NCBI GenBank assembly: GCA_007050995.1
Contig: VJOU01000009.1
Span: 1 to 64,000 of the forward strand
Length of the DNA: 64,000 nucleotides
Reading direction: 5' to 3'
DNA from: Glycocaulis profundi
GTDB lineage: Bacteria; Pseudomonadota; Alphaproteobacteria; Caulobacterales; Maricaulaceae
Shown: positions 34,307 through 51,925 of the stretch, piece after piece
Layout: each line of letters opens with the position of its first letter
Numbering within the stretch: position 1 is the stretch's first letter
Notes under the pieces: generated by a model
What the model was told of the DNA's origin: nothing
Databases searched by the model: none
The model's input: only the letters and a program-made list of their open reading frames with translations
Translations under genes and position numbers: made by a program

Positions 34307-34789
34307 GTGATGGAGTTTCTGACCCTGGCGCTGACGATCACGGGCGCGGCGCTGCTCGTCGCGGCTGCGGTCATCGACGCGCGGACCCGGCGGCTGCCCG
34401 ACGTCCTGACCCTTCCCCTGATCGCGCTGGGGCTGCTGGCGGCGTGGGCTCTGGGCCTGCCGCTCTGGCTGCATGGTCTGGGCGCGGCGCTGGGCTATCT
34501 GCTCATGGCCGGGCTGGAGCTGGGCTATCGCCGGATCCGGGGCCGTGACGGGCTGGGGCGGGGCGACGCCAAGCTGCTGGCGGCGGGCGGGGCGTGGTGC
34601 GGGGCGCTGGGCCTGGCGCCCGTCCTGCTGATCGCCAGCGCGTCGGGCCTGCTCTTCGTGTTGATCCTGCGCGTTGCGGGGCGCGCGATCTCCGCGGACG
34701 CGGCCATCGCCTTCGGGCCCTTCCTGGCGTTCGGGATCGCGCTGGTCTGGAGCTTCCAGCGGACCGGCCTGTGGCCTGCGGCCTTGTAA
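34307..34789 (+). CDS. Short type IV prepilin peptidase (GspO/CpaA-like, A24 family)
   Basis: A 160-residue inner-membrane aspartic peptidase containing only the catalytic half of GspO/PilD. The first catalytic Asp is in AAVIDARTRRLPDVLTLP and the second in GRDGLGRGDAKLLAAGGAW, the G-x-G-D-x-K/F motif. The N-terminal methyltransferase domain is absent, as in CpaA/TadV. GTG at 34307 is 8 bases after GGAGG; the ATG at 34310 is also usable. Placed at the head of the type II secretion locus, it is the likely peptidase for the pseudopilins GspG-K. Without the second domain the mature pseudopilins would need another enzyme for N-methylation or remain unmethylated. Confidence 0.85.
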   Translation: MMEFLTLALTITGAALLVAAAVIDARTRRLPDVLTLPLIALGLLAAWALGLPLWLHGLGAALGYLLMAGLELGYRRIRGRDGLGRGDAKLLAAGGAWCGALGLAPVLLIASASGLLFVLILRVAGRAISADAAIAFGPFLAFGIALVWSFQRTGLWPAAL

Positions 34790-34829
34790 TCAAACCGCAA
34801 TGAAATCGTCACGATCCACAGCATTCAGC

Positions 34830-34885
34830 CTGTGTCTTCAAGCTGTCGCGCAGGCGTCACCTCACTGACAACAAGAGTGTTTAAC
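34830..34885 (+). promoter_or_regulatory. Candidate Pho-box-like promoter of the lipoprotein/receptor/T2SS locus
   Basis: Three 7-mers at exact 11-base intervals, CTGTCGC (34843), GCGTCAC (34854) and CTGACAA (34865), resemble the PhoB consensus CTGTCAT repeated every 11 bases, though each has mismatches. A -10-like TTTAAC follows at 34880-34885. The spacing is right for a PhoB-activated promoter, but the match is partial. Confidence 0.3.
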
Positions 34886-35003
34886 AGGGAACCCGGCTTA
34901 CCCGCCATGCAGGTCATGCCGGGGAGTGATCTGAGCACGTCTGTCAGCACGCGCGGAGGCCGGGCAGGGAACCGAGCGGCCGCCGCCGAACAAGGGGCAT
35001 CCC

Positions 35004-37766
35004 ATGTCTTTGAGGGTTTACGCGAGCGTCATCGCGCTGGGTCTGGCCGCCGCGGCCTGCACCCAGGGATCGGACATAAACACGCCGGGCGACACCAATC
35101 CGGGCACGCCTCCGGGCGGCGGCACCCCGCCTCCGGGCGGCGGCACGCCCCCGCCGGGCGGCGCGTCCTGCCCGTCAGGCTTCACCCAGGGCGAGCCGGT
35201 CGCTGGCCTGACCAGCTGCCTGCTGTCGGGCACGATCCTTGAAAACCTGACCCTGCCCTTCGTGGACGGCGTGGCCTACCGGCTGGACGGCCGTGTGGAC
35301 GTGGGCGTCGACGTGGGCGCGGACGGGTCCGACCCTGACGGGGTGAACGCGCGCCTGACCATCGAGCCGGGCGTGACGGTGTTCGGCGCGGACGGATCGG
35401 ACTTCCTGGTCATCAATCGCGGCTCGCAGATCATCGCCGACGGCCGCGCGGACGCGCCCATCGTGATGACGTCCGACGAAGACCTGATCCGCCGCGCCGC
35501 CGATCCGTCCGACACGGGCGGCGAGCTTAACGGCGAGTGGGGCGGGCTGGTCGTTCTGGGCCGCGCGCCGATCAACCGCTGCCGCGACGCGGCGACCCCG
35601 GGCACGGCGGACTGCCAGAACCTGGTGGAAGGCGTGACCAATCCCGACGCCCTGTATGGCGGCGCGGACGGGGACGACGACAGCGGGATCATGCGCTATC
35701 TGCGCGTCCAGTTCGCCGGGTTCGAGCTGACCCCGGGCAACGAGCTGAACGGCATCACGCTGGGCGGCGTGGGCCGGGGCACCGTGATGGAGTACATCCA
35801 GGTCCACAACAACGCCGATGACGGCGTGGAGTATTTCGGCGGCACGGTGAACACCCGCTATCTCGTCCTGACCAACATGGACGACGACTCCATCGACACT
35901 GACAATGGCTGGGACGGCCGCATCCAGTACGCGCTGGTGGTCCAGGGCGAGGGCGTGGGCGACAACATCGTCGAAGCCAGCTCCTCGGCGCCGGGCGTGC
36001 AGCCTTTCTCGGGCGGCATCACCTCCAACTTCACCTTCGTGGGCGCCCGCACCAACGCCTTCCGTCTGAACACCGGCACGGTCGGGCGTTACGTGAACGG
36101 CGTGGTGGATTACGGCGCGGAATGCTTCCGCTGGGAAAGCTCCGCCGGCGACGGTCAGGCCGGCTACAGCGCCGGCGCCGATCCGCGCTTCGACTCGGTC
36201 GTCTTCGACTGCAATGGCGGGCTGGCCACGGCCAACTCCGACACCGCGGCCGCGCAGGGTGCCGTCTCGGGCGGCTCGAACAACGTGGTGGGCGAAAGCT
36301 CGCTGTCGGGCATCCTGTTCCCCGGCCCGGTCGAGCAGGGTGTGACCCCGTTCGACGTGGCCGCCCTCGACGACTGGTTCGATGATGTCGATTACATCGG
36401 CGCGTTCAGCCCCGACGAGACCGAAACCGACAACTGGGCCGCGGGCTGGACCATCGGCCTGTTTCCCGAACCGGCCTGCCCGGCGGGCACAGCCGACACC
36501 GGCTTTCAGCGCGCCGGTCAGACCGTCTGCCGCCTGTCTGGGGTCTACACCTCCGACCTGCGCCTGACCCGCGGCAACATCTATGAACTCGCCGGCCGGG
36601 TAGACATCGGCAACGACACCGGAGCCGACGGCAACGCGGCGGGGGGGGATCCGGCCATCCTGACCATCGAGGCCGGCGTGACCATCTACGGCAGCTCGGG
36701 CGCCGACTTCCTCGTGGTGAACCGCGGCTCGCAGATCTTCGCAAACGGCACCCGCCAGAACCCGGTCATCATGACCTCCGAAAACGACGTCGCGGGGATC
36801 GGCGATCGCGCGAACGCCTTCGGTGAATGGGGCGGGCTGGTGATCCTGGGCAAGGCTCCGATCAACCGTTGCCGTGACGCGGCGACGCCCGGGACAGCCC
36901 AGTGCCAGAACCTCGTGGAAGGGGTGACCAATCCCGATGCGATCTATGGCGGCGCCATCCCTGACGACAATTCGGGCTCTATGACCTACTTGCAGGTCAA
37001 GTTCGCCGGTTTCGAGCTGACCCCGGGCAACGAGCTGAACGGCATCACTCTGGGCGGCGTCGGCAACGGCACGGTCATGGAATACATCCAGGTGCACAAC
37101 AACGCCGACGACGGGGTGGAGTATTTCGGCGGCACGGTGAACACCCGCTATCTGGTGCTCACGGGCAATGACGACGACTCCATCGACACCGACAACGGCT
37201 GGCAGGGCAACATCCAGTTCGCCATCGTCATCCAGCCTGACGGCGTGGGCGACAACATCGTCGAAGCGAGCTCTGTCGGCGCGGGCGTCGCGCCCCTGTC
37301 GGACGGCCGCATCTCCAACTTCACCTTCATCGGCAATCGCACCAACGCCTTCCGCCTGAACACCGGCACCGTGGGCCGTTATGTGAACGGCGTGGTGAGC
37401 TACGGACAGGAATGTTTCCGCTGGGAGCCCTCAGCGGGCGACGGCCAGGCCGGCTACAGCGCCGGGAACGACCCGGCCTTCGACTCGGTCCTGTTCGACT
37501 GCGCGGGCGGCCTGTCCACGGCCAACTCCGACACGGCGGCGGCGCAGGGCTCGGTTGACGCCGGCTCGAACAACTCCACCGACGTGGCCAGCACGCTGAC
37601 CTCGGTCTTCGTGAACGGCCCGGCCGAGAGCGCGGTCACTCCGTTCGACCCGACCACCTTCGATCCGTGGTTCCGGGCCGTCGACTACATCGGCGCGGTC
37701 CGCGACGCGGACGACCGCTGGTGGGCGGACTGGACGTGCGGGCTCGAAGCCTCGCGGCCCTGCTAG
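35004..37766 (+). CDS. Large lipoprotein made of two tandem beta-helix-like halves
   Basis: A 920-residue lipoprotein. The signal sequence ends in a lipobox around AAAAC with Cys19. A flexible Gly/Pro linker of GGTPPPG repeats (about 29-55) follows. The remainder is an internal duplication: residues 56-491 and 492-920 align throughout. Each half opens with CP-x-G, shows LTIE-[PA]-GVT-[VI]-[FY]-G, RGSQI, GEWGGLV-[VI]-LG-[RK]-APINRC, VEGVTNPDA, ELTPGNELNGITLGGVG, YIQVHNNADDGVEYFGG and DDDSIDTDNGW, and ends with WTIGLFPEPAC or WTCGLEASRPC. The regular short strands suggest a right-handed beta-helix. It stands between the prepilin peptidase and a TonB receptor and upstream of gspC-N, so it is a likely surface partner of that receptor and a likely T2SS substrate (inference). 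Confidence 0.85.
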   Translation: MSLRVYASVIALGLAAAACTQGSDINTPGDTNPGTPPGGGTPPPGGGTPPPGGASCPSGFTQGEPVAGLTSCLLSGTILENLTLPFVDGVAYRLDGRVDVGVDVGADGSDPDGVNARLTIEPGVTVFGADGSDFLVINRGSQIIADGRADAPIVMTSDEDLIRRAADPSDTGGELNGEWGGLVVLGRAPINRCRDAATPGTADCQNLVEGVTNPDALYGGADGDDDSGIMRYLRVQFAGFELTPGNELNGITLGGVGRGTVMEYIQVHNNADDGVEYFGGTVNTRYLVLTNMDDDSIDTDNGWDGRIQYALVVQGEGVGDNIVEASSSAPGVQPFSGGITSNFTFVGARTNAFRLNTGTVGRYVNGVVDYGAECFRWESSAGDGQAGYSAGADPRFDSVVFDCNGGLATANSDTAAAQGAVSGGSNNVVGESSLSGILFPGPVEQGVTPFDVAALDDWFDDVDYIGAFSPDETETDNWAAGWTIGLFPEPACPAGTADTGFQRAGQTVCRLSGVYTSDLRLTRGNIYELAGRVDIGNDTGADGNAAGGDPAILTIEAGVTIYGSSGADFLVVNRGSQIFANGTRQNPVIMTSENDVAGIGDRANAFGEWGGLVILGKAPINRCRDAATPGTAQCQNLVEGVTNPDAIYGGAIPDDNSGSMTYLQVKFAGFELTPGNELNGITLGGVGNGTVMEYIQVHNNADDGVEYFGGTVNTRYLVLTGNDDDSIDTDNGWQGNIQFAIVIQPDGVGDNIVEASSVGAGVAPLSDGRISNFTFIGNRTNAFRLNTGTVGRYVNGVVSYGQECFRWEPSAGDGQAGYSAGNDPAFDSVLFDCAGGLSTANSDTAAAQGSVDAGSNNSTDVASTLTSVFVNGPAESAVTPFDPTTFDPWFRAVDYIGAVRDADDRWWADWTCGLEASRPC

Positions 37767-37859
37767 CAGCCTGACCGGCGCCGTCCGCGCCCGCCTCCGT
37801 CACGGAGCGGGCGCGGCGGCGCTGGGTCCCGGTGAAGATCAGATCAAAGGTTGGGAACC

Positions 37860-40451
37860 ATGACATCCCTGAAGACACTGAGCGGAGCGCTGCTGGCGAC
37901 CAGCATGCTGATCGCGCCATCCGCCCACGCCCGCCAGACCGCGGGCGACATCGCCGCCGAGGCCACGGACCAGCCGGTCGAACAGATCGAGGTCCGCGGC
38001 CAGTTCATCCCCGACGCCCAGCGCCGGACCTCCCAGGTCGCGAGCTTCGTGACCAGCGCCGATCTCGACCGGTCGGGCGACGCCAACGCCGCCATCGCCC
38101 TGACCCGGGTGTCGGGCCTGTCGGTGGTGGGCGGCCGCTTCGCCTATGTGCGCGGTCTGGGCGACCGCTACGCGGCGGCGACCCTGAACGGCTCGCCCCT
38201 GCCCAGCCCCGAGCCGCTTCGGCGGATCGTGCCGCTGGACCTGTTCCCGGCCGAAGTGCTGGACGGGGCGGCGGTGCAGAAGACCTATTCGGCCAACTAT
38301 CCCGGCGAGTTCGGGGGCGGGGTCATCGACCTGACCACCCTGCGCCAGCCCGCCGAGCCCTTCTTCAACATCCGCTCGTCGGTGGGCTACAACACCGTGA
38401 CCACGGGCGAACAGGGCGTGTTCCACCGCGGCACGACCGGCGACTGGTCGAGCTTCTCCGGCCCGGCGCGCGACATTCCCCGTCCGATCCAGGCGGTCAT
38501 CGACAGCCAGACCCGCCTCAACCAGCTCACCCCGGCCCAGCTCGAGGAAGCCGGCGAGAGCCTGGTGCGCCCCAACCTGCTGGTCGTCCAGTCCGGCGAG
38601 CTGGGACCGGACTTCTCCGCCTCCGCGGACGCGGGCTTCGGGTTCAACCGCGGCGGTCTCGAGGTCGGCCTCGTCGGCGCCATCGGCTACGACACCGGCT
38701 GGACCATCGAGGAATCCACGCGCCAGCGCGTCCGCGGCGACGTGCTGGGCTCGGACCTGCGCACCCAGGTCGGCGCGCTGGACACCACGGTCAACGCGCT
38801 GGGCACCCTGTCGCTGGGCTATGACGACCATGAGGTCCAGTTCACCACCTTCCTGGTCAATTCGGGCCGCAAGGACACCCAGGTCACCCGCGGCGAGGAG
38901 TTCAACGCGCCCGGCGGCCGGCCGATCTATGAAGAGTTCACCGGCTGGTTCGAGCGCCGCCTGATGATGTTCCAGACCTCGGGCCGGCACGGCTTCGGCG
39001 ATCTGGAAGTCCGCTGGCGCGGCTCGGTGTCCCAGGCCCGGCGCGACACGCCCTTCCTCCAGCGCCTCCTGCGCTATGAGGACGCGAACGGCGTGCCGGT
39101 CTATTCGTTCGCCAACCGCTACTCCATCGAGTTCACCGAGCTGACCGACGACCTGACCAGCTTCGGCGGGGAGGCGGCCTACACCTTCACGCTGCCCGGC
39201 CAGCGCGAGCTGGTCCTGACCGCGGGCGGCGACACCGCGCGCACCGAGCGGGATTTCCGCTCGCTCTTCTTCCGGCTCGGCGGGGGCAGCGCGCTGCCTG
39301 ACGACGTGCGCCGGGCGCGGCCGGACTTCCTGTTCTCTCCGGCCAACATCGGCCCGAACCGCTTCGTGCTGACCGAGACCCAGACGCCCCAGTCCAACTA
39401 TGAGGGCCGTCTGGACGTGGACGCGGCCTTCGTGCAGGCCGACGTGGACGTCACGCCCTACATCCGCGCCACCGTGGGCGCGCGTTACGAGGACGCCGTC
39501 CAGCAGGTGCAGACCTTCTCCCGCTTCGGCCAGCTCGGCCGCGGCGCCACGCTGGAGAACGACTACATCCTGCCCGCCGCCACCGTGACGTGGAACTTCG
39601 CCTCCGATCTGCAGCTCCGGCTGGGTTACTCGGAAACCATCGCCCGGCCCCAGTTCCGCGAGTTCGCCAATTCGGGCTTCTTCGATCCCGAGACCCAGCG
39701 CAGCTATCGCGGCTTCGACGGCCTGGTGGACAGCCGCCTGACGAACTACGACGCGCGTCTGGAATACTATCTGGGCCGCGACCAGTTCATCACCGGCGCG
39801 GTCTTCTACAAGGAGATCGAGAACCCGATCGAGGAGGTCCAGTTCGAGACCGCTTCCTTCGTGACCGAGACCACCTTCTTCAACTCGCCCAAGGCCGAGC
39901 TGACCGGGCTGGAGCTCGAATACCGGCAGATGTTCCAGTTCCCGCTGGACGTGCCGTGGTTCCGCGATCAGGACTGGCGCTTCGCGGTCAACTACACCTA
40001 CACCAAGTCGGAGGTGATCGCCCCGGCGGGCACGCTGGTGCTCGACCCGATCACCGACACCCTGCGCGACGCGGCCTTCTTCAATCTGGACGGCTCCCAG
40101 CTCCAGGGCACGCCGGAGAACATCGTCAACGCCCAGTTCGGCTGGGAGGGCGAGCGCGACCAGTTCACCATCCTGGTCAACTGGCTGGACGAGCGCATCC
40201 TCCAGCGCGGCTTCGACAGCCCGTCCGGCGTCCTGCCCGACGTGATCGAGGAGCCGGGCGTGCAGCTCGACATGGTTTATCGCCGCAGCTTCCAGATCCT
40301 CGACCGGGAGCTCCGGCTGGGCCTGAGCGGGCGCAACCTGCTCGACGAGCGTCACCGGGAATTCCAGCGCAACGAGACCATCGGAGCGACGGAATTCAAC
40401 ACCTATGACCGCGGCCGCAGCTTCTCTGTGAGCCTGACCGCCGCGTTCTGA
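37860..40451 (+). CDS. TonB-dependent receptor paired with the duplicated lipoprotein
   Basis: An 863-residue outer-membrane receptor. The signal peptide (MTSLKTLSGALLATSMLIAP) is cut near AHARQ, a TonB-box-like QIEVRGQ follows, then a plug with FAYVRGLGDRYAAATLNGSP, LPSPEPLRRIVPLDLFPAEV and YSANYPGEFGGGVIDLTT. This plug signature (VRGLGDRY...LNG...PSPEP) marks a distinct TBDR subfamily. The barrel ends in ...SFSVSLTAAF with terminal Phe. The start at 37860 is the first ATG after AAAGG. It lies 93 bases after the lipoprotein gene and 150 bases before gspC, all on the same strand. The cargo is unknown. Confidence 0.92.
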   Translation: MTSLKTLSGALLATSMLIAPSAHARQTAGDIAAEATDQPVEQIEVRGQFIPDAQRRTSQVASFVTSADLDRSGDANAAIALTRVSGLSVVGGRFAYVRGLGDRYAAATLNGSPLPSPEPLRRIVPLDLFPAEVLDGAAVQKTYSANYPGEFGGGVIDLTTLRQPAEPFFNIRSSVGYNTVTTGEQGVFHRGTTGDWSSFSGPARDIPRPIQAVIDSQTRLNQLTPAQLEEAGESLVRPNLLVVQSGELGPDFSASADAGFGFNRGGLEVGLVGAIGYDTGWTIEESTRQRVRGDVLGSDLRTQVGALDTTVNALGTLSLGYDDHEVQFTTFLVNSGRKDTQVTRGEEFNAPGGRPIYEEFTGWFERRLMMFQTSGRHGFGDLEVRWRGSVSQARRDTPFLQRLLRYEDANGVPVYSFANRYSIEFTELTDDLTSFGGEAAYTFTLPGQRELVLTAGGDTARTERDFRSLFFRLGGGSALPDDVRRARPDFLFSPANIGPNRFVLTETQTPQSNYEGRLDVDAAFVQADVDVTPYIRATVGARYEDAVQQVQTFSRFGQLGRGATLENDYILPAATVTWNFASDLQLRLGYSETIARPQFREFANSGFFDPETQRSYRGFDGLVDSRLTNYDARLEYYLGRDQFITGAVFYKEIENPIEEVQFETASFVTETTFFNSPKAELTGLELEYRQMFQFPLDVPWFRDQDWRFAVNYTYTKSEVIAPAGTLVLDPITDTLRDAAFFNLDGSQLQGTPENIVNAQFGWEGERDQFTILVNWLDERILQRGFDSPSGVLPDVIEEPGVQLDMVYRRSFQILDRELRLGLSGRNLLDERHREFQRNETIGATEFNTYDRGRSFSVSLTAAF

Positions 40452-40485
40452 CCGGCCGTCCGGGGCGCAAGTCTCTGGAATCAGA

Positions 40486-40526
40486 CAGCCCCCGTTCCCG
40501 CTGCTTTCAGGCGGGGGCGGGGGCTG
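40486..40526 (+). terminator. Hairpin between the receptor gene and gspC
   Basis: CAGCCCCCG (40486-40494) pairs perfectly with CGGGGGCTG (40518-40526), with an inner CCCGC/GCGGG stem. No T-tract follows, so it may be a leaky terminator that lets some transcription into gspC. Confidence 0.5.
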
Positions 40527-40601
40527 CCCTGTAATACAACCGTCGCATCTTTGAGATAGACAGGCGGTCGAGCGGGGATAGAGCGGGTACGGATCATTCT
40601 C

Positions 40602-41441
40602 ATGGCGTTTCCGACCGATGCCGGACGACCCGGAAGGGGGCTCCGCGCCCTCACCGGTCCGCGTCTGGCGGCGTTCGCGCCGCGTCTCGCCGAGGCCGCC
40701 GCGGCGGTCGTCATCGGCCTTCTCGCCGCCCGCATCATCTGGTTCGTGCTGTATGGCGCCAGCCCGGCGCTGGACCTGCCGGTCCGCAGCGCAGAGGCCG
40801 CTGCCACGCGCGGCGCGGTCTCCGCGACCGCCCGCCCGGCCGACATCTTCCGCGACGCCAGCCGGCCTCAGGCCGAAATCTCCGAAGACGCGCTGCCGCG
40901 CACCAGCCTCGATCTGGTCCTGTACGGCGTGCGCGCGGGCGCCGATCCGCGCTCCGGCTCGGCCATCATCGAGGCGGGCGCGGCCGGGCAGCGGGCCATA
41001 CCCGCCGGCGGGCGCATCGCCGAGGGCGTGACGCTGGAGGAGATCCGCGAGGACCGCGTCATCATCAGCCGCCGCGGCGTGCGCGAGGCCCTGATGCTGC
41101 GCGCCCGCGAGGGCGATGCCGCTCCGGGAGCCGCCTCCCAGCCCGCGGCGCCGGCCGCCACCGCGTCCGGCGAGGCCCCGCTCCCGCGCCTGATGGACGG
41201 GCTCAGGGCGCATTCGGAGGACGGCGCCTTCGCCGGGATCCGGGTCGAGGACGATCCGGTGCCCGACCTCATTTCCGCGCTCGGCCTTCAGGCGGGCGAC
41301 ATCATCACCGCGCTGGACGGGCACGCGCTCGACACGCCTGAAGCCCGCGCCATTCTTTCATCCTTTCCCCGGCAGGCCCCCGCCGAGCTCACGGTGAGAC
41401 GGCGCGGCGAGACGATCAGCCTGCGAGCGAGCCAGCCATGA
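40602..41441 (+). CDS. gspC: Type II secretion protein GspC with PDZ domain
   Basis: A 279-residue inner-membrane protein that links the secretin to the inner-membrane platform. A single membrane helix is seen near residues 31-51 (AEAAAAVVIGLLAARIIWFV). The periplasmic HR domain covers about 100-170 (LDLVLYGVRAG...AGGRIAEGVTLEEIREDRVI), and a C-terminal PDZ domain spans about 205-275 (IRVEDDPVPDLISALGLQAG, DIITALDGHALD). Low sequence similarity is normal for GspC. Its stop overlaps gspD by 4 bases. Confidence 0.88.
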   Translation: MAFPTDAGRPGRGLRALTGPRLAAFAPRLAEAAAAVVIGLLAARIIWFVLYGASPALDLPVRSAEAAATRGAVSATARPADIFRDASRPQAEISEDALPRTSLDLVLYGVRAGADPRSGSAIIEAGAAGQRAIPAGGRIAEGVTLEEIREDRVIISRRGVREALMLRAREGDAAPGAASQPAAPAATASGEAPLPRLMDGLRAHSEDGAFAGIRVEDDPVPDLISALGLQAGDIITALDGHALDTPEARAILSSFPRQAPAELTVRRRGETISLRASQP

Positions 41442-43411: not shown

Positions 43412-44904
43412 TGACCGGCACGCGCCTTCTCGGATACGGCTTCGCCCGCGAACGCGGCGTCGCCCTGAGAGGGGGCGATGCGCCCGCGCTGCTGATGCGC
43501 CGGGGCGCGGACCCGCTGGCCCTGATCGAGGCGGGCCGGGCGGCGGGCGGATTTCCGGTCGTGCTGGAGCTGGACCCGGCCGAGTACGACCGCGCCCTGT
43601 CGGACATCTACGCCGCCGCGGCTATCGACGGCGGCGAAGCCGAGCAGGCGGTGTCGGGCGAGGAGAGCCTGTCGCGGCTCATCGACGAGATGCCGCGGGC
43701 GGACGACCTGCTGGCGGCGGATTCCGACGCCCCGGTGATCCGGCTGATCAACGGGCTGATCGCCGAGGCCATCCGGGCTGCCGCCTCCGACATCCATGTC
43801 GAGCCCTTCGAGGACCGTGTCTCGGTGCGCTTCCGGCTCGATGGCGTGCTCAGCGAGCGGGTCGCCCTGCCGCCCCGCCTCGCGCCCGCGCTGGTCTCGC
43901 GCCTGAAGGTCATGGCCCGGCTGGACATCGCCGAGCGGCGCGTGCCTCAGGACGGACGGGTCACGCTGACGCTGGCGGGCCGGGGGGTGGACGTGCGCGT
44001 CTCCACCCTGCCGTCGCGCCATGGCGAGCGGGTGGTCATGCGCCTGCTGGACAAGTCCTCCGCCCTGATGTCGCTGGACGCGCTGGGCATGCCGCCCGCC
44101 GTCCTGTCGGGCTTCAGCCGCGCGCTGGCCCAGCCCAACGGCATCGTGCTGGTCACCGGCCCCACCGGCGCGGGCAAGACCACCACGCTGTATGCCGGGC
44201 TGACCCGGCTGAACGACCGGACCCGCAACATCCTGACCGTGGAAGACCCGGTGGAGTACGCCGTGGACGGGGTGGGCCAGACCCAGGTGAACGCCAAGGT
44301 CGGCATGACCTTCGCCGCGGGGCTGCGGGCCATTCTGCGCCAGGACCCCGACGTGGTGATGGTGGGCGAGATCCGCGACGCGGAGACGGCCCGCATCGCC
44401 GTTCAGGCCAGCCTGACCGGCCATCTCGTCCTGTCCACCGTGCACACCAATTCCGCCGCCGCCGCCATCGCGCGCCTGCGCGACATGGGGGTGGAGAGCT
44501 ATCTGCTGGCCACCACCCTGACTGCGGTGCTCGCCCAGCGCCTGGTCCGCCGTCTCTGCCCGTCCTGCCGGGAGCCCTACGAGGCGGACGTCACCGAGAA
44601 GCGGCTGGCCGGCGTCCCCGTCCATGACGGCCTGACCCTGTGGCGCGCGCCGGGCTGCGAGGCCTGCAAGGGGCAGGGCCATGCCGGGCGGCTGGGCGTC
44701 TATGAGTTCATCGCCGTGGACGATCCCTTGCGCGCGATGATCCACGCCGACGCGCGCGAAGGCGACATCGAGGCGCACGCCTTCGCGAATGGCGGGACCA
44801 GCCTGTTCCGTGCCGGGATGGCGCTGGCCCGGGAGGGCGCGACCAGCCTGGCTGAAGTCCTGCGCGTCTGCCGCGAGGAGGGCGAGCGCCATGCCGGCGT
44901 TTGA
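43411..44904 (+). CDS. gspE: Type II secretion ATPase GspE
   Basis: A 497-residue cytoplasmic secretion ATPase. ASDIHVEPFEDRVSVRFRLD is the conserved N2 motif. The Walker A is VTGPTGAGKTTTLYAG, the Asp box is DPVEYAVDGVGQ, the Walker B is DPDVVMVGEIRDAETA and the His box is HLVLSTVHTNSA. A four-Cys zinc module is present as CPSCREPY and CEACKGQGHAG, typical of GspE rather than twitching ATPases. It overlaps gspF by 14 bases. Confidence 0.97.
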   Translation: MTGTRLLGYGFARERGVALRGGDAPALLMRRGADPLALIEAGRAAGGFPVVLELDPAEYDRALSDIYAAAAIDGGEAEQAVSGEESLSRLIDEMPRADDLLAADSDAPVIRLINGLIAEAIRAAASDIHVEPFEDRVSVRFRLDGVLSERVALPPRLAPALVSRLKVMARLDIAERRVPQDGRVTLTLAGRGVDVRVSTLPSRHGERVVMRLLDKSSALMSLDALGMPPAVLSGFSRALAQPNGIVLVTGPTGAGKTTTLYAGLTRLNDRTRNILTVEDPVEYAVDGVGQTQVNAKVGMTFAAGLRAILRQDPDVVMVGEIRDAETARIAVQASLTGHLVLSTVHTNSAAAAIARLRDMGVESYLLATTLTAVLAQRLVRRLCPSCREPYEADVTEKRLAGVPVHDGLTLWRAPGCEACKGQGHAGRLGVYEFIAVDDPLRAMIHADAREGDIEAHAFANGGTSLFRAGMALAREGATSLAEVLRVCREEGERHAGV

Positions 44905-46111
44905 ATATGTCGCCCTGGACGCGCGCGGAAAGCGCACGAAAGGCCTCGTCTCCGCCGAGACCGGACCCGCCGCCCGCGCCGAGCTGCGCCGCCGCCAGCT
45001 CTCCCCCCTGAAGATCGCCCGCGCCGACGCGCGGCAGGAGAGAACGGGCGGATCGCCGCTCTCTTCGGGGCCGCGCCTGACCGGCGCTCAGCGCGTGCTG
45101 GTCACGCGGCAGATGGCGACGCTGGTTTCCGCCGGGCTGCCTGTGGCCGAGGCGCTGGGCGCGGTCGCCGGGCAGGGGCTGGCCGCCGGGCCGCGCCGGA
45201 TCGTGCTGGGCCTGCGCGCCCGCGTGGTGGAGGGCGAACGGCTGTCGCTGGCCATGGCCGGTTATCCGGCCGCCTTCCCGCCGCTCTACCGCGCCCTGAT
45301 CGCGGCGGGCGAGACCACCGGCGCGCTGGGCGCGGTGATGGAGCGGCTGGCCGAGCATCTGGAGAAGTCCGCCGCCCTGTCGCGGCGCATCACGCTGGCG
45401 CTGATCTACCCTTCCGCGCTGGCGGTGACGGCGCTGGCCGTGATCGCGGTGCTGATGGTCGCCATCGTGCCGCGCATCGCCGAGCAGTTCGGCTCGATGG
45501 GCGTCACCCTGCCGCTGCTGACCCGCATCATGATCGCAACGTCCGAGTTCCTGCAGGACTGGTGGCCGGGCCTGCTGGCGCTCGTGGTCGCCCTGCCGTT
45601 CGCCCTCCGTCTGCTGGCCCGGCGGCCCGCGGTCCGCGCGCGTCTGGACCGGCTGGTCCTGTCGCTGCCCCTGATCGGGGCGCAGGCGCGCAAGATCGAG
45701 GCGGCGCGGTTCTCGCGCACCACGGCGGTTCTGCTGGCCTCCGGCGTGGTCCTGCCCGACGCCCTGCGCGCGGCCTGGCAGGCCAGCGCGAACACCGTGT
45801 TCCGCCAGTCGGTCGCCCGCGTGCGCGAGGCCGTCGAGGGCGGGCGGGGCCTGCCCGACGCGCTTCAGGCCGAGGCGATCCTGCCGCCGCTGGCCCTGCA
45901 CATGGTCGCGGCGGGCGACCGGGCGGGCGATCCCGCCGCCATGCTCGCCCGCGCCGCCGTTCAGATGGAGACCGAGATCGACGGGACGGTCTCGGTCGCC
46001 CTGAGCCTGCTCGAACCCGCCATCATCATCGCGATGGGCGGCGTGGTCGCCGTCATCGTCCTGTCCATCCTCCTGCCCATCCTCCAGCTCAACACGCTGG
46101 CGATGGGCTGA
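44891..46111 (+). CDS. gspF: Type II secretion inner-membrane platform protein GspF
   Basis: A 406-residue polytopic protein of the GspF/PilC family, the rotor-like base on which pseudopilins assemble. The N-terminal MPAFEYVALDARGKRTKGL and LVTRQMATLVSAGLPVAEAL are diagnostic, as are two repeated four-helix domains each ending in a transmembrane helix, with a third helix at the C-terminus (IIIAMGGVVAVIVLSILLPI). The start at 44891 lies within the end of gspE. Confidence 0.96.
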   Translation: MPAFEYVALDARGKRTKGLVSAETGPAARAELRRRQLSPLKIARADARQERTGGSPLSSGPRLTGAQRVLVTRQMATLVSAGLPVAEALGAVAGQGLAAGPRRIVLGLRARVVEGERLSLAMAGYPAAFPPLYRALIAAGETTGALGAVMERLAEHLEKSAALSRRITLALIYPSALAVTALAVIAVLMVAIVPRIAEQFGSMGVTLPLLTRIMIATSEFLQDWWPGLLALVVALPFALRLLARRPAVRARLDRLVLSLPLIGAQARKIEAARFSRTTAVLLASGVVLPDALRAAWQASANTVFRQSVARVREAVEGGRGLPDALQAEAILPPLALHMVAAGDRAGDPAAMLARAAVQMETEIDGTVSVALSLLEPAIIIAMGGVVAVIVLSILLPILQLNTLAMG

Positions 46112-46125
46112 ACAAGGAGCCGCCC

Positions 46126-46557
46126 ATGACCCGCAAGCGCCGCGAAGAAGGCTTCACCCTCGTCGAGCTGATGGTCGTCGTCGTCATCATCGGCCTGCTG
46201 GCGACGGTCGTGGTCCTGAACGTGCTGCCCAGCCAGGACCGCGCCCGCATCGAGAAGGCCCGCGCCGACATCGGCCGGATCGAGCAGGCGCTGGAGATGT
46301 TCCGGCTCGACATGGGCCGTTACCCGACCACCGACGAGGGGCTGGACGCGCTGGTCCTGCCGCCGTCCGATCCGCGCCTGTCGGCGAACTATCCCGAGGG
46401 CGGCTACATCAACCGCCTGCCCGACGACCCGTGGGGCGGGCAGTATCAGTATCTCTTCCCCGGTGAGCATGGGCGCTTCGACGTCTTCACCCTGGGCGCG
46501 GACGGCCGCACCGGCGGCGACGGCCCCGCCGCGGACATCGGCAACTGGCAGGGCTGA
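46126..46557 (+). CDS. gspG: Major pseudopilin GspG
   Basis: A 143-residue class III prepilin-like protein. The cleavage site is EEG/FTLVELMVVVVIIGLLA with the conserved Glu5 of the mature form. The body has the GspG pattern ALEMFRLDMGRYPTTDEGL, LPDDPWGGQYQY and DVFTLGADGRTGGDG, where the last segment carries the calcium-binding Asp residues. AAGGAG lies before the ATG. The stop overlaps gspH by one base. Confidence 0.97.
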   Translation: MTRKRREEGFTLVELMVVVVIIGLLATVVVLNVLPSQDRARIEKARADIGRIEQALEMFRLDMGRYPTTDEGLDALVLPPSDPRLSANYPEGGYINRLPDDPWGGQYQYLFPGEHGRFDVFTLGADGRTGGDGPAADIGNWQG

Positions 46558-47057
46558 TGTGCCGTGCACGCGGTCATAAACGCGAGGCGGGCTTCACCCT
46601 GGTGGAGGTGATGGTCGCGGTCGCGATCATCGCCACGCTGGCGATGGCGGCCTTGGTGGCGCTGCCCTCAGGGCCGCCGCCCGCGCGCGCCGAGGCCGAC
46701 GCGCTGGCCCTGCGGCTGAACGCGGCGCGGGTCAGGGCGGTGACGTCCGGCGAGATCATCGGCTTCTCCGCGGAAGCGGACGGCGCGGGCTACGTCTTCA
46801 TGGTCTATGGGGCGGAGGGCTGGGCGGTGCTGCATGGCGACCGCTCGCTGGGGCCGCGCGCGCTGGCCGGGGGCGTGTCCCTCGCCCGCGCCGACCATCC
46901 GCCCCAATGGACCGCGCGCGCCTCTGAGGCCGCCGCGCCCCAGATCTGGTTCGACCCCGCCGGGGCCACCCCGTCCGCGGCGTGGCGGGTGACGGGGCGG
47001 GACGGGAGCGTGACCGTCGCCGCGGACGGGCGTGACGGGTTCGAGGTGCGGCCATGA
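46557..47057 (+). CDS. gspH: Minor pseudopilin GspH
   Basis: A 166-residue pseudopilin with prepilin motif REAG/FTLVEVMVAVAIIATLA. The following AEADALALRLNAARVRAVTSG matches the helix of GspH. The C-terminal part is a beta-rich globular domain. Position between gspG and gspI supports the call. Confidence 0.9.
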   Translation: MCRARGHKREAGFTLVEVMVAVAIIATLAMAALVALPSGPPPARAEADALALRLNAARVRAVTSGEIIGFSAEADGAGYVFMVYGAEGWAVLHGDRSLGPRALAGGVSLARADHPPQWTARASEAAAPQIWFDPAGATPSAAWRVTGRDGSVTVAADGRDGFEVRP

Positions 47058-47422
47058 GGCGCGAGGACGGCTTTTCGCTGGTTGAGATGCTGGCCGCTCT
47101 GGGCGTGCTGGCCATCGCGGGTCTGGCGCTGGTCAGCGCCCTGACCCAGTCCGCCCGCGCCGCCACTCTGGCCGAAGACCGCGCGCTCGCCGCGCTGGCC
47201 GCCGAGACGGTGCTGACCGAAGCCCGGCTGGACGGGACGGAGGGTCTGCGCGCGCGCTCCGGCGCGGGACGGAAGGCCTTCGCCGACCGTGACTGGGACT
47301 GGCGCATAACCCTCGCCCCCACCCCCGATCCGGGGCTGGAGCGGGTGACGGTGGAGGTTTCCGCAGAGGGCGCCCGCCGGGCGGGCTATGTCCTGATCAG
47401 CTTCCAGAGGGCGGCGCGATGA
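47054..47422 (+). CDS. gspI: Minor pseudopilin GspI
   Basis: A 122-residue pseudopilin with REDG/FSLVEMLAALGVLAIAGLA and the characteristic AALAAETVLTEARL after the helix. The length is typical for GspI. It overlaps both neighbours by 4 bases. Confidence 0.92.
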   Translation: MRREDGFSLVEMLAALGVLAIAGLALVSALTQSARAATLAEDRALAALAAETVLTEARLDGTEGLRARSGAGRKAFADRDWDWRITLAPTPDPGLERVTVEVSAEGARRAGYVLISFQRAAR

Positions 47423-48057
47423 GCCGGGAGGCGGGTTTTTCCCTGATCGAGGTGCTGGCCGCGGTGCTGGTCTTCGCCATCGTGGGCACGATGTCCACCG
47501 GACTTCTGGTGACATCGCTCGACGCGAAGGACCGGAACGCGGCGGCGCTGGACCGGCTGAGTTCGCTTCAGCAGGTCCGCGCCCTGCTGCGCGATGACGC
47601 CGCCCAGATGCTCGACCGGCCCGCCCGCGCGGGCCGCGACGGCGAGCCGATGGCCGCCTTCCGCTCGGACGCGGGCCTGCCGGGCATGGCACGGACCGGG
47701 GAAGGAACGCTCCTGCTCGGGCTGGTGCGCCGGGGCCGCGCCAATCCGGGCGGCGCCGAGCCGCGGTCCAGCCTTCAGCGGGTCGACTGGCGGCTCGAGG
47801 ACGGAGCGCTGGTGCGCGCGGTCTGGCCGCTGCCCGACACGGCCCCGGATGCTGTCCCTGAACGCCTCGTGCTGGCCGAGGGCCTGTCGGAAGTGGCCGT
47901 GGAGTTCTTCCACGGCGGGGTGTGGCGGGATGCGCCCCTGCGCGCGGCGGGAGGGGACGCCCCGCCGCCCGCCGCCATCCGCCTGCGCTATCTCGATCCT
48001 GCGGGCTGCGCGATGGAGCATGTGGTGGTCACCGCCATCGGGGAGGCGCGGGCATGA
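47419..48057 (+). CDS. gspJ: Minor pseudopilin GspJ
   Basis: A 212-residue pseudopilin with REAG/FSLIEVLAAVLVFAIVGTM, LSSLQQVRALLRDDAAQMLD and a beta-rich C-terminal domain containing FHGGVWRDAPL. It should form the tip complex with GspI and GspK. Confidence 0.92.
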   Translation: MSREAGFSLIEVLAAVLVFAIVGTMSTGLLVTSLDAKDRNAAALDRLSSLQQVRALLRDDAAQMLDRPARAGRDGEPMAAFRSDAGLPGMARTGEGTLLLGLVRRGRANPGGAEPRSSLQRVDWRLEDGALVRAVWPLPDTAPDAVPERLVLAEGLSEVAVEFFHGGVWRDAPLRAAGGDAPPPAAIRLRYLDPAGCAMEHVVVTAIGEARA

Positions 48058-49034
48058 GCGCGCCGCGCGACGCCGAGCGCGGCTCCGCGCTAGTCACGGC
48101 CCTGCTGATCGTGGCGGTGATGGCCTTGGTCAGCGTGGGGCTGGTCGATCTGTCCATGAGCGCGCTCCAGCGCACCGGCACGATGGACGCGCGGACCCAG
48201 GCCGCCGCGTATCTCGATGGCGCGCAGGCCTTCACCGAAGCCGCGCTGGTCCGGGCGTCCGAGCTGGACGAGGGGCGGCTGCGGCCCGACGGCCCGTGGG
48301 ACGGCGCCCCGCGCGTGTTCGATATCGAGGACGGGCGGCTGGCGGGCCGGGTCAGGGATGCGTCCAACTGCCTGAACCTGAACGCCCTGCACGACCCCGA
48401 TGGCGCGCCCGAGGCCGACGCCCGCGCCGCCGACCGCATCCGCGCGCTGTTCCGGGCGCTCGGCCTGCCTGCAGCGGATGGCGAGGCTCTGATCGCGCAA
48501 GGCTCCGACTGGATCGACGCCGACCGAGCGCCCCGGCCCGGCGGGGCGGAGGACGATCATTACCTGCGCCTGCCCATGCCTCACCGCGCCGCCAACCAGC
48601 CCTTCGCCGAGATCGAGGAGCTGCGCGCCCTGCCGGTGATGACGCCGGACCTGTTCGACGCCCTGCGCCCGCATCTGTGCGTCCTGCCCCAGCCGGCCCA
48701 GCCGCCCCTGAACGTGAACACGCTGCGGCTGGAAGAGGCGGTGATGCTGACCGCCATGAGCGGCGGGCTGATCACGCCCAACGAGGCGCGCGCCCTGATC
48801 TTCCGCCGCCCTTCCACGGGTTATGCGTCCGTCGAGGCCTTCTGGGCCGACCCTTCCGCCGCGCCTTTCACCGACAGCCTGCCCGCCTCGGCGGTGGCGC
48901 TCGGCTCGGACTGGTTCGAGACCGAGATCACCGTGGAACTGGACCGCGCGCGCCTGACGCGCCGCCAGCTCGTCCGCCTGTCGGGCAATGGCGAGGTCCG
49001 GCGCTTCACCCCCATCCAGGGAGCAGTGCTATGA
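48054..49034 (+). CDS. gspK: Tip pseudopilin GspK
   Basis: A 326-residue large pseudopilin. The prepilin site ERG/SALVTALLIVAVMALV lacks the Glu at mature position 5, a known property of GspK. The conserved ASNCLNLNALHD, WIDADRAPRPGGAEDDHYL, PFAEIEELRALPVMTPDLF and LNVNTL are seen, covering the SAM-like inserted domain and calcium site. Confidence 0.94.
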   Translation: MSAPRDAERGSALVTALLIVAVMALVSVGLVDLSMSALQRTGTMDARTQAAAYLDGAQAFTEAALVRASELDEGRLRPDGPWDGAPRVFDIEDGRLAGRVRDASNCLNLNALHDPDGAPEADARAADRIRALFRALGLPAADGEALIAQGSDWIDADRAPRPGGAEDDHYLRLPMPHRAANQPFAEIEELRALPVMTPDLFDALRPHLCVLPQPAQPPLNVNTLRLEEAVMLTAMSGGLITPNEARALIFRRPSTGYASVEAFWADPSAAPFTDSLPASAVALGSDWFETEITVELDRARLTRRQLVRLSGNGEVRRFTPIQGAVL

Positions 49035-50239
49035 CCGCCACCCTCGTCATCCGGCTGCCCGCGCCGGACCGGGCCGACGACGCGCCGGTCGCATGGACCC
49101 TGTTCGACGAGGACGCGCGCGCCGCGACGGGCGAGGCTGCGCCCGGATCAGCGCCGGACCTGCCCCCCGGTGCGGCGCCCGACCGCCTGATCGCGCTGGC
49201 GCCCGCCGACCATGTCAGCATGGTCCGGCTTCTCATCCCCGCCCGGTCCGACCGCGAGGCGGCCCAGGCCGCGCCCTTCGCCATCGAGGACCGGCTCGCC
49301 GCGCCGCTGGAGACTCAGACCGTCGCCGCCGGTCCCGCCGGGCCGGACGGGGCGCGCCTCGTCATGGCCGCCGAGGCTGGGCTGGCCGCGCGCTGGAGCG
49401 CGCTCGTGACCGCGACGGGAATCCGCCCCGTCCACGTGCTGCCCGACGCCATGGCGCTGGAGACGGACGCGGCGCTGGCGCTCGCCCGGGAGGCGGGCCG
49501 CATCCTGTTCCGCGCGAGCTGTGATGAGCTGCCCCTGTGCGGGGCCTTCCCGGAGGCGCTGGCCGACAGGATGCTTCCCGCGCTGATCGAGCGGGCGGGG
49601 GAGGGGAGGATCGTTCTTCAGGGCTTTGATCCGGCTGTCCTTTCTCAAGCCGAGCACCTGCCGCCTTCTGACCTCGACGTTGCCGCGGCGGGGATGGACG
49701 ATGCGGCCCTTCGGCTGCTCTCGCCCCTGCTGGGGCCTGGGCTGGCGGCGCGGCTGGACTGGGCGGGCGCGCTGAGGCCCTGGCGCGGCGCGGCGGTGGC
49801 GGCCGGCATCGCGGGCGCGCTGGCGCTGGGCGCGGCGCTGGCGGAGGGGCTGTGGCTCGATCACCGGGCGCAGGCGTATGGCGACGCCGCCCGCACAGCC
49901 TTCGCAGAAGCCTTCCCGGACGTGCGCCGGGTGGTCAATCCGCGCGCCCAGCTCGCCCAGCGGCTCGCCGCCGCCGGTCCCGCGGCGGGCACGGGCCAGT
50001 TCCTCGATCTGTCCTCTACGCTCGCCATGCTGCTGGAGGCCGCCCCGCAGGTGCGGGTGGAGGCGCTGCGCTATGACGCCGACCGGGGCGTGCTGGCGGT
50101 CACGGCGGTCTATGGCGGGTTCGATGATTTCGAGACCCTGCGCGCCGCCGCCGAGGCGTCGGGCGTGAGCATTGAGGATTCCGGCGCCCGGCAGGGTCCG
50201 GACGGGGTGGTGGGCGATTTTCTGGTGAGGCTGCGATGA
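49031..50239 (+). CDS. gspL: Type II secretion protein GspL
   Basis: A 402-residue bitopic protein. A cytoplasmic actin-like N-terminal half (ADHVSMVRLLIPARSDREAA) should bind GspE. One membrane helix is near residues 257-277 (AAVAAGIAGALALGAALAEG), and a periplasmic ferredoxin-like domain with VRRVVNPRAQLAQRL and VRVEALRYDADRGVLAV follows. It overlaps gspK and gspM by 4 bases. Confidence 0.9.
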   Translation: MTATLVIRLPAPDRADDAPVAWTLFDEDARAATGEAAPGSAPDLPPGAAPDRLIALAPADHVSMVRLLIPARSDREAAQAAPFAIEDRLAAPLETQTVAAGPAGPDGARLVMAAEAGLAARWSALVTATGIRPVHVLPDAMALETDAALALAREAGRILFRASCDELPLCGAFPEALADRMLPALIERAGEGRIVLQGFDPAVLSQAEHLPPSDLDVAAAGMDDAALRLLSPLLGPGLAARLDWAGALRPWRGAAVAAGIAGALALGAALAEGLWLDHRAQAYGDAARTAFAEAFPDVRRVVNPRAQLAQRLAAAGPAAGTGQFLDLSSTLAMLLEAAPQVRVEALRYDADRGVLAVTAVYGGFDDFETLRAAAEASGVSIEDSGARQGPDGVVGDFLVRLR

Positions 50240-50754
50240 GCGGCGTGCGGACCCTGATGGCGGCCCCGGGCCGGGCCTGGCGCACGCGCACCGCGCGCGA
50301 GCAGACCCTGCTGGCGGGGAGCGCGACCGTTCTCGCCGCTGTGCTGGGCTGGACGCTGGCCGTCCAGCCGCTGCTGACGTTCCGCGACGGCGCGCAGACG
50401 CGCTACGCCGCCGCCATGGCCGAGCATCTGGAGATCCATCAGGGGCTGGAGCGCCATCGCGCGCTCGCCGCCACCGCCACCGAATACGACGACCGGGGCC
50501 TGCCCCTGCGCGCGGTCGTGGCCCAGGGCGCGGCGCGGGCCGGGGTGACGCTGGCGCGGGTTCTGCCCGACGAGAGCGGGCGGCTGAATGTCTGGATCGA
50601 GAGCGCCGATCCGGGGGCGCTGATGGGCTGGCTGGAGGCGCTGTCCGCCGACAGCGCCATCACCGCGACCCGCGCCAGCATCGACCGCGCCGCCCCCGGC
50701 AGCGACCAGGTCCGCGCCCAGCTCCTGCTCGAACGCCCCGGAGGCGGGTCATGA
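50236..50754 (+). CDS. gspM: Type II secretion protein GspM
   Basis: A 172-residue bitopic protein with basic cytoplasmic start, one membrane helix (LAGSATVLAAVLGWTLAVQP) and a small periplasmic ferredoxin-like domain containing RAGVTLARVLPDESGRLNVW. Length and position after gspL are standard. Confidence 0.88.
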   Translation: MSGVRTLMAAPGRAWRTRTAREQTLLAGSATVLAAVLGWTLAVQPLLTFRDGAQTRYAAAMAEHLEIHQGLERHRALAATATEYDDRGLPLRAVVAQGAARAGVTLARVLPDESGRLNVWIESADPGALMGWLEALSADSAITATRASIDRAAPGSDQVRAQLLLERPGGGS

Positions 50755-51479
50755 GCCGCTGGATCATGGCCGCCCTCGGCGCGCTGGCTCTTCTCGCGGG
50801 TCTGATCGCCTTCGCGCCCGCGCGGATGGCTCATGACGTCTGGCTGCGGCCGAACGGGGTGTCCGCCTATGCCGTGGAGGGCACGGTCTGGCGCGCGGGC
50901 CTGCATGAAGCCACGGTGCGCGGACGCCGGGTGGCCTCGGTCCGGACGGAGACGCGCCTGCTGCCCCTGCTCGCGGGCCGGGCCGAGACGCGCTTCGAGA
51001 TCGCCGACCCCGAGCTGCGCCTGACCGGCCAGGCCTCGGTTTCACGGTCGGGCTGGGCGCTCGGCGAAGCGTCGGGCATGGCCCGCCTGCCGAGAGACGC
51101 GGGCCTGCCCGCGGCGCTGGCCGGACAGCCGCTGCGGGTCGAGGGTCTGGCCGTGCGGTATTCGCAGACGGGATGCGAGACCGCGTCGGGCCGAGCGCGC
51201 ACCGGCGCTCTGGCCGCGGCGGGCGAGCGGCACGGCGTCGCCCTGCCCATGCTCGAAGGCGGATTCGCGTGCGAGGGGCGGGACGTCATTCTGCGCCTGT
51301 CGGGGCGGTCGGAGCTTGTGGGCGTCGAGGGCTGGGCGCGGATCGGCGCGCGCGGGATCGACTGGAGCTTCGAGGCCGTGCCCGCCGGGCCCGATGTCGC
51401 CGTGCTCCTGCCCGCGCTGGGCTTTTCTGAGCAGGAGGGCGCATGGCGGATCAGCGGGACCGGCCGCGCGGCGGGCTGA
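50751..51479 (+). CDS. gspN: Type II secretion protein GspN
   Basis: A 242-residue protein with one N-terminal membrane helix (WIMAALGALALLAGLIAFAP) and a periplasmic beta-rich body including VEGTVWRAGLHEA and GRAETRFEIADPELRLTG, the usual GspN pattern. GspN is present only in part of the known T2SS loci. Its 3' end overlaps the next gene by 37 bases, more than elsewhere in the operon. Confidence 0.82.
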   Translation: MSRWIMAALGALALLAGLIAFAPARMAHDVWLRPNGVSAYAVEGTVWRAGLHEATVRGRRVASVRTETRLLPLLAGRAETRFEIADPELRLTGQASVSRSGWALGEASGMARLPRDAGLPAALAGQPLRVEGLAVRYSQTGCETASGRARTGALAAAGERHGVALPMLEGGFACEGRDVILRLSGRSELVGVEGWARIGARGIDWSFEAVPAGPDVAVLLPALGFSEQEGAWRISGTGRAAG

Positions 51480-51925
51480 AACCCGCCCTTGCGGCGGGGC
51501 TGGGGCTGTTGGCGGCGGCCTGCGCCACCGCGCCCGGCCCGGGGTCCGCGTCCGGCCTGCCCGCGCTCGCCGGCGACAGCCTCCCGCCCCAGACCCTCCG
51601 GCCCGGTGAATGCGCCCTGTTCGTCTGGACCGCCACGGCCCCTCATCGCCTCGTCCTGTTCGAAGCCTTCGGGCGGGGCGAGGCGCTGCTGCGGGCAGAG
51701 GGCCGGGACATCGCGCTCCGACCTCTCTCGGATGCTTTTGACATTGGCGAGGGTGCGCTTGCACTGGCCTATGAAAGCCGGTCAGGCGGACTGCGCGCGG
51801 AGCTGTCGGGACAGGCGGAAACCGTCGAGGGAGAAGGGTTCGAGCTGTCTCGAGCGGTGCTGAGGGTGCTGGACCAGGCGGGTCTGACGGTCACGCCGGT
51901 CGGAGGAGTAGGGGCCTGCCGATGA
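51443..51925 (+). CDS. Small lipoprotein at the end of the T2SS operon
   Basis: A 160-residue predicted lipoprotein. The signal sequence LAAGLGLLAAAC gives a lipobox at Cys27, followed by a Pro/Ser/Gly linker. The globular part contains CALFVWTATAPHRLVLFEAF and a C-terminal Cys, so one disulphide is possible. I do not recognise the family. The place at the end of a T2SS operon and the lipid anchor make it a candidate pilotin for the GspD secretin, or another outer-membrane accessory protein. This is inference, as no GspS/AspS signature is visible. Confidence 0.6.
   Translation: MADQRDRPRGGLKPALAAGLGLLAAACATAPGPGSASGLPALAGDSLPPQTLRPGECALFVWTATAPHRLVLFEAFGRGEALLRAEGRDIALRPLSDAFDIGEGALALAYESRSGGLRAELSGQAETVEGEGFELSRAVLRVLDQAGLTVTPVGGVGACR

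Follow-up and report, generated by a model that had tools for sequence, protein, structure and literature searches.

We analysed 64,000 nucleotides of Glycocaulis profundi (contig VJOU01000009.1, positions 1-64,000; hereafter the window), in which a plus-strand locus at 34310-51925 encodes a lipoprotein, a TonB-dependent receptor and a type II secretion system (T2SS). The first gene, gspO (34310..34789), encodes a prepilin peptidase of 159 residues with a Peptidase_A24 domain (PF01478, E 2.4e-19). It is followed by the genes for an ElpS-like lipoprotein of 920 residues (35004..37766) and for a receptor of 863 residues (37860..40451), which contains a PF07715 plug and a PF00593 barrel and is Cc0171-like by its order. 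A preliminary description of this DNA had given the gene order, strand, overlaps and motifs from the prepilin peptidase through the lipoprotein, the receptor and gspC-N to a last lipoprotein, all of which were confirmed; Pfam supports the receptor and every gsp assignment. Its statement that the genes stand with only short gaps holds in general, except for a non-trivial gap of 214 bases between gspO and the lipoprotein gene, which contains a Pho-box-like array on the plus strand (34832..34871).

The T2SS component set was complete by Pfam/NCBIfam, with the secretin, the ATPase, GspF, the pseudopilins G-K, GspC, GspL, GspM and the prepilin peptidase. Downstream of the receptor gene, all on the plus strand, lie gspC (40602..41441; PF11356), gspD for the secretin (41438..43411; TIGR02517, E 1.5e-154), gspE for the ATPase (43411..44904; TIGR02533, E 5.5e-192), gspF (44891..46111; PF00482), gspG for the major pseudopilin (46126..46557; PF08334), gspH (46557..47057; PF12019), gspI (47054..47422; PF02501), gspJ (47419..48057; PF11612), gspK (48054..49034; PF21687/PF03934), gspL (49031..50239; PF05134/PF12693), gspM (50236..50754; PF04612) and gspN (50751..51479; PF01203). 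The starts of gspO (34310), the receptor gene (37860), gspF (44891), gspG (46126), gspK (48054) and gspL (49031) are revised ones. GspD and GspE passed the NCBIfam cut-offs; GspF scored 409.6 bits against TIGR02120, just below the cut-off of 424, and GspC scored 69.3 bits against TIGR01713, below the cut-off of 101.6.

The lipoprotein carries the lipobox AAAC with the acceptor at Cys19 and consists of two modules that are 67% identical over 434 columns, so that the duplication described for it stands. It matched no Pfam or NCBIfam family at E 0.001, gave no SusD-family match in Pfam, and a PDB sequence search returned no match for it (E≤1) or for the receptor (E≤0.01). Module 2 was modelled on an alignment of eight rows (the window and the named-locus sequences). 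The best model had a mean predicted local distance difference test score (pLDDT) of 75 and a predicted template modelling score (pTM) of 0.82, and the five models spread over pLDDT 43-75. The best 50 rows from VIA-align had Z scores of 17.6-20.6 across 244-317 residues, and the matches included NosD, pertactin, tailspikes and alginate epimerases. Foldseek returned nothing at E 0.001, its best match being only at E 0.023. The chains matched by VIA-align, and most of those matched by Foldseek, are presumably β-helices. Module 2 is accordingly modelled as a right-handed parallel β-helix with a fold match spanning most of the module, a predicted fold that cannot separate an enzyme from a binder. 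Among 89 lipoprotein frames, a loose lipobox pattern was unmatched in five; two of these (L056 and L066, the latter showing VACS) look like problems of start or pattern, and the other three (L124, L128 and L129) may genuinely be without a lipobox. The lipoprotein gene of an Alteromonas plasmid (L162, 8375-12445) is 4071 bases long and exceeds the two-module form of the window.

An arrangement of this kind was reported in 2010. The order in Caulobacter crescentus is cc0170, encoding ElpS, cc0171, encoding a TonB receptor, and gspC-N (Le Blastier et al. 2010, PMC2996285). The same paper lists Hyphomonas neptunium, Sphingomonas alaskensis and Xanthomonas campestris as further species with the tandem. 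The window shows the same arrangement, a lipobox lipoprotein, a TonB receptor and then gspC onward on one strand. Since order and composition agree with those in C. crescentus, the composition in the window is not uncharacterised, contrary to the preliminary description, and the locus probably belongs to the ElpS-Cc0171-T2SS kind. ElpS is produced on phosphate starvation, palmitoylated and surface exposed. Its release was stopped by protease inhibitors and was lost in a strain deleted for gspC-N, in which ElpS nevertheless remained sensitive to proteinase K on the surface (PMC2996285). This is the result that the preliminary description had named in advance as refuting its proposal that the lipoprotein owes its place on the cell surface to the T2SS; for the Caulobacter protein the proposal falls. 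The PhoB regulon of C. crescentus, as reported in 2024, includes the T2SS and various TonB receptors (PMC11208175). A paper on a secreted β-helix protein of Caulobacter makes no mention of the T2SS or ElpS.

Loci of related genera show the same pair. Four named Brevundimonas loci encode a single-module lipoprotein, 43-49% identical in the best segment, with the receptor next in all four, and two of them (L034 and L035) keep the order lipoprotein-receptor-gspD. The Amphiplicatus locus (L033) has the lipoprotein, the receptor and then gspC-J. The sampled family f3 includes B. halotolerans, as the Brevundimonas locus L037 and the sampled locus L075 are identical over the 4000 bases compared.

Conservation was surveyed in 61 genomes, namely that of the window and 60 relatives, with thresholds of E≤0.001 for the lipoprotein and E≤1e-60 for the receptor. 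The two proteins were held by the identical 44 genomes and their genes were adjacent in 43 of these, the 44th (G037) being cut by contig ends; this recurrence indicates that the order is beyond chance. In two wider, overlapping samples that include the window's genome, the lipoprotein was found in 9 of 289 genomes of the class sample and 57 of 397 of the phylum sample. Ninety loci, the window and 89 fetched from 89 genomes, were then labelled by their neighbours, with flanks of about 0.1 to 16 kb seen per side; G351 has a further, weaker match to the lipoprotein, which is not among them. Forty loci lay beside gspD and gspE, 11 beside virB4 and 39 beside neither, a label that is unsure for L066 and L106, which are near contig ends. 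The split of the 66 alphaproteobacterial loci (40 T2SS, 11 virB, 15 neither) is new in this survey, and neither system was adjacent in any of the 24 loci of other classes. Among the first 44 genomes, 30 were T2SS-linked, four virB-linked and 10 neither, so that the conservation beside gsp genes that the preliminary description proposed to check is the usual state in relatives. Its idea of a dedicated system is borne out for the lipoprotein-receptor unit but not for the T2SS; because the pair is also found where no T2SS is adjacent, the T2SS is an associate and not a fixed part. The T2SS arrangement also occurs on named plasmid records of Sphingomonas parapaucimobilis and Indioceanicola profundi. 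One genome (G044; L047, 10256-11122) has a GspN-like gene adjoining the receptor gene and its gspD on a separate contig, which would fit a relocation of the gsp cluster, and five genomes of family f15 (L153, L155-L158) have a differently ordered gsp cluster distant from the pair.

The gap upstream of the lipoprotein gene points to phosphate control. Its array consists of four 7-mers near CTGTCAY, which we take to be the Pho-box-like consensus, at 11-base spacing. The four-unit score of 21/28 was the single best on both strands of the 64 kb, the next being 18; the two-unit score alone is unremarkable (rank 2, with 11 ties in the window). Upstream regions of 89 lipoprotein genes were scanned at a two-unit threshold of 11/14, L069 being dropped as a contig end leaves it without a lipoprotein open reading frame. 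The threshold was reached by 67 of the 89 (75%), against 4.3 expected from first-order shuffles, whereas the receptor upstreams stayed at background (4 of 87, with 5.8 expected). By group, it was reached by 28 of 39 T2SS-linked and 10 of 11 virB-linked lipoprotein genes and by 22 of 24 in other classes.

Gene context outside the Alphaproteobacteria points in the same direction. The plasmid pBGP9 of Alteromonas macleodii (NZ_OX359244.1) has the order phoB, phoR, phosphate-binding protein, oxygenase, lipoprotein, TonB receptor, DUF3450, exbB, exbB, exbD and tonB. Among the 24 non-alphaproteobacterial loci, phoB at no less than 76% identity to the plasmid protein was found in eight (L090, L098-L103, L127), the DUF3450-exbB-exbD-tonB set in 10 (L091-L093, L096, L099-L103, L127), and phoB, the exbB-exbD-tonB set or both in 12. 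PhoB and PhoR of L090 were confirmed by NCBIfam. The earlier suggestion that the lipoprotein feeds the receptor survives in so far as this context fits TonB-driven uptake; its other half, surface placement by the T2SS, does not.

Eleven alphaproteobacterial pairs adjoin genes of a VirB type IV secretion system, in two geometries. Within family f4 (G039, G047, G055), virB1, 2, 3, 4, 6, 8, 9 and 11 lie downstream of the pair and codirectional with it; for VirB10, tblastn gave a partial match in L145 only. In G054 of family f3 and seven f15 genomes (G184, G265, G333, G470, G526, G604, G674), the virB genes, starting with virB1, lie upstream of the pair and run divergently from it. Pfam detected VirB2, B3, B4, B6, B9, B10 and B11 in L138 and VirB2, B3, B4, B6, B8, B9 and B11 in L053. 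With the L053 protein of f4 as the only query, tblastn gave no VirB8 match in the f15 loci L136-L142 or in L134 of G054; the same query matched L149-L151, L132 and L133. VirD4 (PF02534, E≤1e-5) was found near the pair in none of the 11 virB-linked genomes and nowhere at all in five of them. The pair adjoins virB in 11 of the 16 pair genomes that have a strong VirB4 (E≤1e-20). No link of the pair to a type IV system was found in the titles and abstract openings of the open-licence papers searched.

GspD (TIGR02517, E≤1e-60) was present in every alphaproteobacterial pair genome of the T2SS-linked (40) and unlinked (15) groups and absent from 10 of the 11 virB-linked ones, the eleventh (G470) having a weaker GspD about 50 kb away. 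Within the genus g29, G569 has the pair beside a T2SS and no strong VirB4, and G054 has it beside virB and no GspD; the G569 lipoprotein and receptor were 73% and 71% identical in the best segment to a query set that included those of G054. Twelve of 17 relatives that lack the pair have GspD and five do not, so that its loss also occurs outside the pair genomes. A receptor tree was built with 87 of the 90 rows by a fast LG+G4 search in which long branches were flagged; the rows excluded were L089, whose receptor open reading frame was mis-extracted, and L128 and L129, where a receptor is absent from the nearest 6 kb. The virB label changed four times on this tree, four changes being forced by starred branches, against a shuffled mean of 10.5. 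On a VirB4 tree of 18 rows, one of them very long (L131), the pair-linked rows fell into three groups with three changes, two of them forced, and the VirB4 of G054 had as its sister that of G046, whose gene adjoins those for DUF1800 and DUF1501 proteins. An independent-pairs test of GspD loss gave the expected direction in 3/3 alphaproteobacterial contrasts and 3/4 overall; with only three independent contrasts, significance is out of reach and the statistical weight is limited.

Judged from gene order alone, these results suggest that the pair benefits from a secretion machine and that two unrelated ones are exchangeable as its neighbours. Pertussis toxin provides a precedent for second-step export by a VirB type IV system. 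We tentatively propose, as a reading somewhat short of an even chance, that the pair depends on an envelope secretion machine and that loss of the T2SS may be made good by a VirB system without VirD4, which would export folded periplasmic or surface proteins in a second step. DUF1800-DUF1501, near gspD in G017 and beside virB in G046 and the genus g22, would be a putative second cargo set subject to the same exchange. DUF1800 and DUF1501 genes stand side by side beside virB in G039, G047, G055 and G046, and in G017 a DUF1800-DUF1501 pair lies 2.7 kb before gspD, so that this gene pair has both secretion neighbours (sites at L143 15711-19026, L130 13024-16315 and L154 2926-5925). DUF1501 was found in 31 of 71 genomes searched, mostly away from these sites. 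As judged by eye, VirB operons of the same broad lineage are near YD-repeat genes in G504 and G584 (L149, L151), and a Sphingomonas aerolata plasmid (L160) has a VirB operon near an annotated RHS protein.

Taken as a whole, the locus is reasonably likely to serve nutrient capture under phosphate starvation, as one of the ElpS-Cc0171-T2SS kind. Induction of the ElpS-like lipoprotein at low phosphate would run through PhoB, as the array and the relatives suggest and as starvation induction was shown in Caulobacter. The lipoprotein, modelled as a tandem of two β-helix domains, would be lipid-anchored on the external side of the outer membrane, which it would reach independently of the T2SS, as the Caulobacter protein does. 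Co-occurrence and gene context suggest that the lipoprotein and the adjacent receptor take up a phosphorus-containing ligand, and the most fitting view of the pair is that of a unit for surface capture and TonB uptake under PhoB control. The adjacent T2SS more likely exports partner proteins than places the lipoprotein; these would be other proteins of the same response, probably hydrolases and a protease that sheds ElpS, the latter being suggested in Caulobacter. Gene order suggests that the pair is served by differing secretion systems, the T2SS in most alphaproteobacterial relatives and VirB in lineages without GspD.

Several observations weigh against this model. Deletion of cc0171 left ElpS production intact, no change of intracellular phosphate was detected, cc0171 was constitutive by reverse transcription PCR (RT-PCR), and the C. 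crescentus T2SS was called constitutive in 2010 (PMC2996285), in conflict with the regulon reported in 2024. Among the four named Brevundimonas loci, L036 and L037 show no gspD after the pair. Alphaproteobacterial loci beside neither system reached the Pho-box threshold in only 7 of 15 cases. Real upstream regions gave a higher background than shuffles, 135 of 1108 other open reading frames (12%) reaching 11/14, and 91 of 442 (21%) among those whose upstream gap is ≥120 bases; the contrast for the lipoprotein genes is smaller against these regions but clear. Outside the class, G432 is a counter-example, with two copies of the lipoprotein but neither GspD nor a type IV system beside the pair. 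Orthology to Cc0170 is putative, resting on order, size, the lipobox and the Brevundimonas relatives.

The lipoprotein might be a surface enzyme, a phosphatase or a polysaccharide-active protein whose product the receptor imports, and not a passive binder. Many polysaccharide lyases and epimerases share the β-helix fold; no catalytic family was matched in Pfam or NCBIfam, however, and pertactin, one of the matches of module 2, is not known to be an enzyme, which counts against this explanation. Secreted alkaline phosphatase activity was raised when ElpS was overproduced, but the report gives this as an association and does not present ElpS as the enzyme (PMC2996285). We therefore regard an enzymatic lipoprotein as rather unlikely. 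Equally doubtful is a conserved neighbourhood only, in which a Pho-regulated uptake pair has a promoter region or chromosomal site in common with general secretion genes but no joint function with them. It would account for the absence of an adjacent secretion system from 24/24 non-alphaproteobacterial and 15/66 alphaproteobacterial loci and for a constitutive T2SS, but not readily for the T2SS-dependent release of ElpS (PMC2996285), the T2SS within the PhoB regulon (PMC11208175) or the two virB geometries (downstream on the same strand in f4, upstream and divergent in f3 and f15). Least probable, and quite unlikely here, is that the T2SS itself carries the lipoprotein to the surface to feed the receptor: the pair adjoins gsp genes in 30/44 genomes, pullulanase is a precedent (cited in PMC2996285) and overproduced ElpS is toxic without a T2SS (PMC2996285), but 39/90 pair loci are beside neither system, and an obligate routing role is ruled out by the surface ElpS of C. 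crescentus lacking gspC-N.

Preferring the model of PhoB-controlled capture and uptake, we note that the idea of an unknown T2SS-lipoprotein-receptor system is corrected, since such loci have been on record since 2010 and the step of surface placement had already been examined, and that the comparative result assigns the little-followed ElpS system a likely role in TonB-driven phosphorus capture under PhoB. If VirB does replace the T2SS for the same pair, two unrelated secretion machines would have been exchanged for one task, and chromosomal VirB systems without a coupling protein would gain a function.

At the ends of the locus, the gene ahead of gspO is presumably that of GMP synthase, and a gene for a DUF885 protein (Pfam) follows the last gene. 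That last gene, 3' of gspN (51443..51925, plus strand), encodes a small exported protein with a lipobox and no Pfam/NCBIfam match. Relatives at E≤1e-4, 26-43% identical, were found in 14 fetched loci; two cysteines are conserved by eye, and the lipobox is missing in some relatives (L045, L046, L074). That it might be a pilotin is only a guess.

The nearest known system, ElpS-Cc0171-gspC-N of C. crescentus, is like that of the window in gene order, lipobox, T2SS set and TonB receptor (PMC2996285). It differs in that ElpS is about 50 kDa, whereas the window lipoprotein has two modules and 920 residues, and in that gspO is downstream and in the opposite orientation in C. crescentus, whereas it is upstream and on the same strand in the window (PMC2996285). 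The likeness to SusC/SusD is a works-like analogy only, a surface lipoprotein encoded with a TonB receptor; unlike SusD, the window lipoprotein is modelled as a β-helix. The pBGP9 island of Alteromonas macleodii resembles the window in having a homologous lipoprotein followed by a TonB receptor, but it has its own regulators and TonB energiser and no secretion system in the stretch shown. Slr4 of Pseudoalteromonas, likened here by description only, is predicted to be β-helical, is surface located and is encoded beside gsp genes; unlike the window lipoprotein it is a surface-layer (S-layer) protein, with no receptor mentioned in the part of the report used (PMC7821379).

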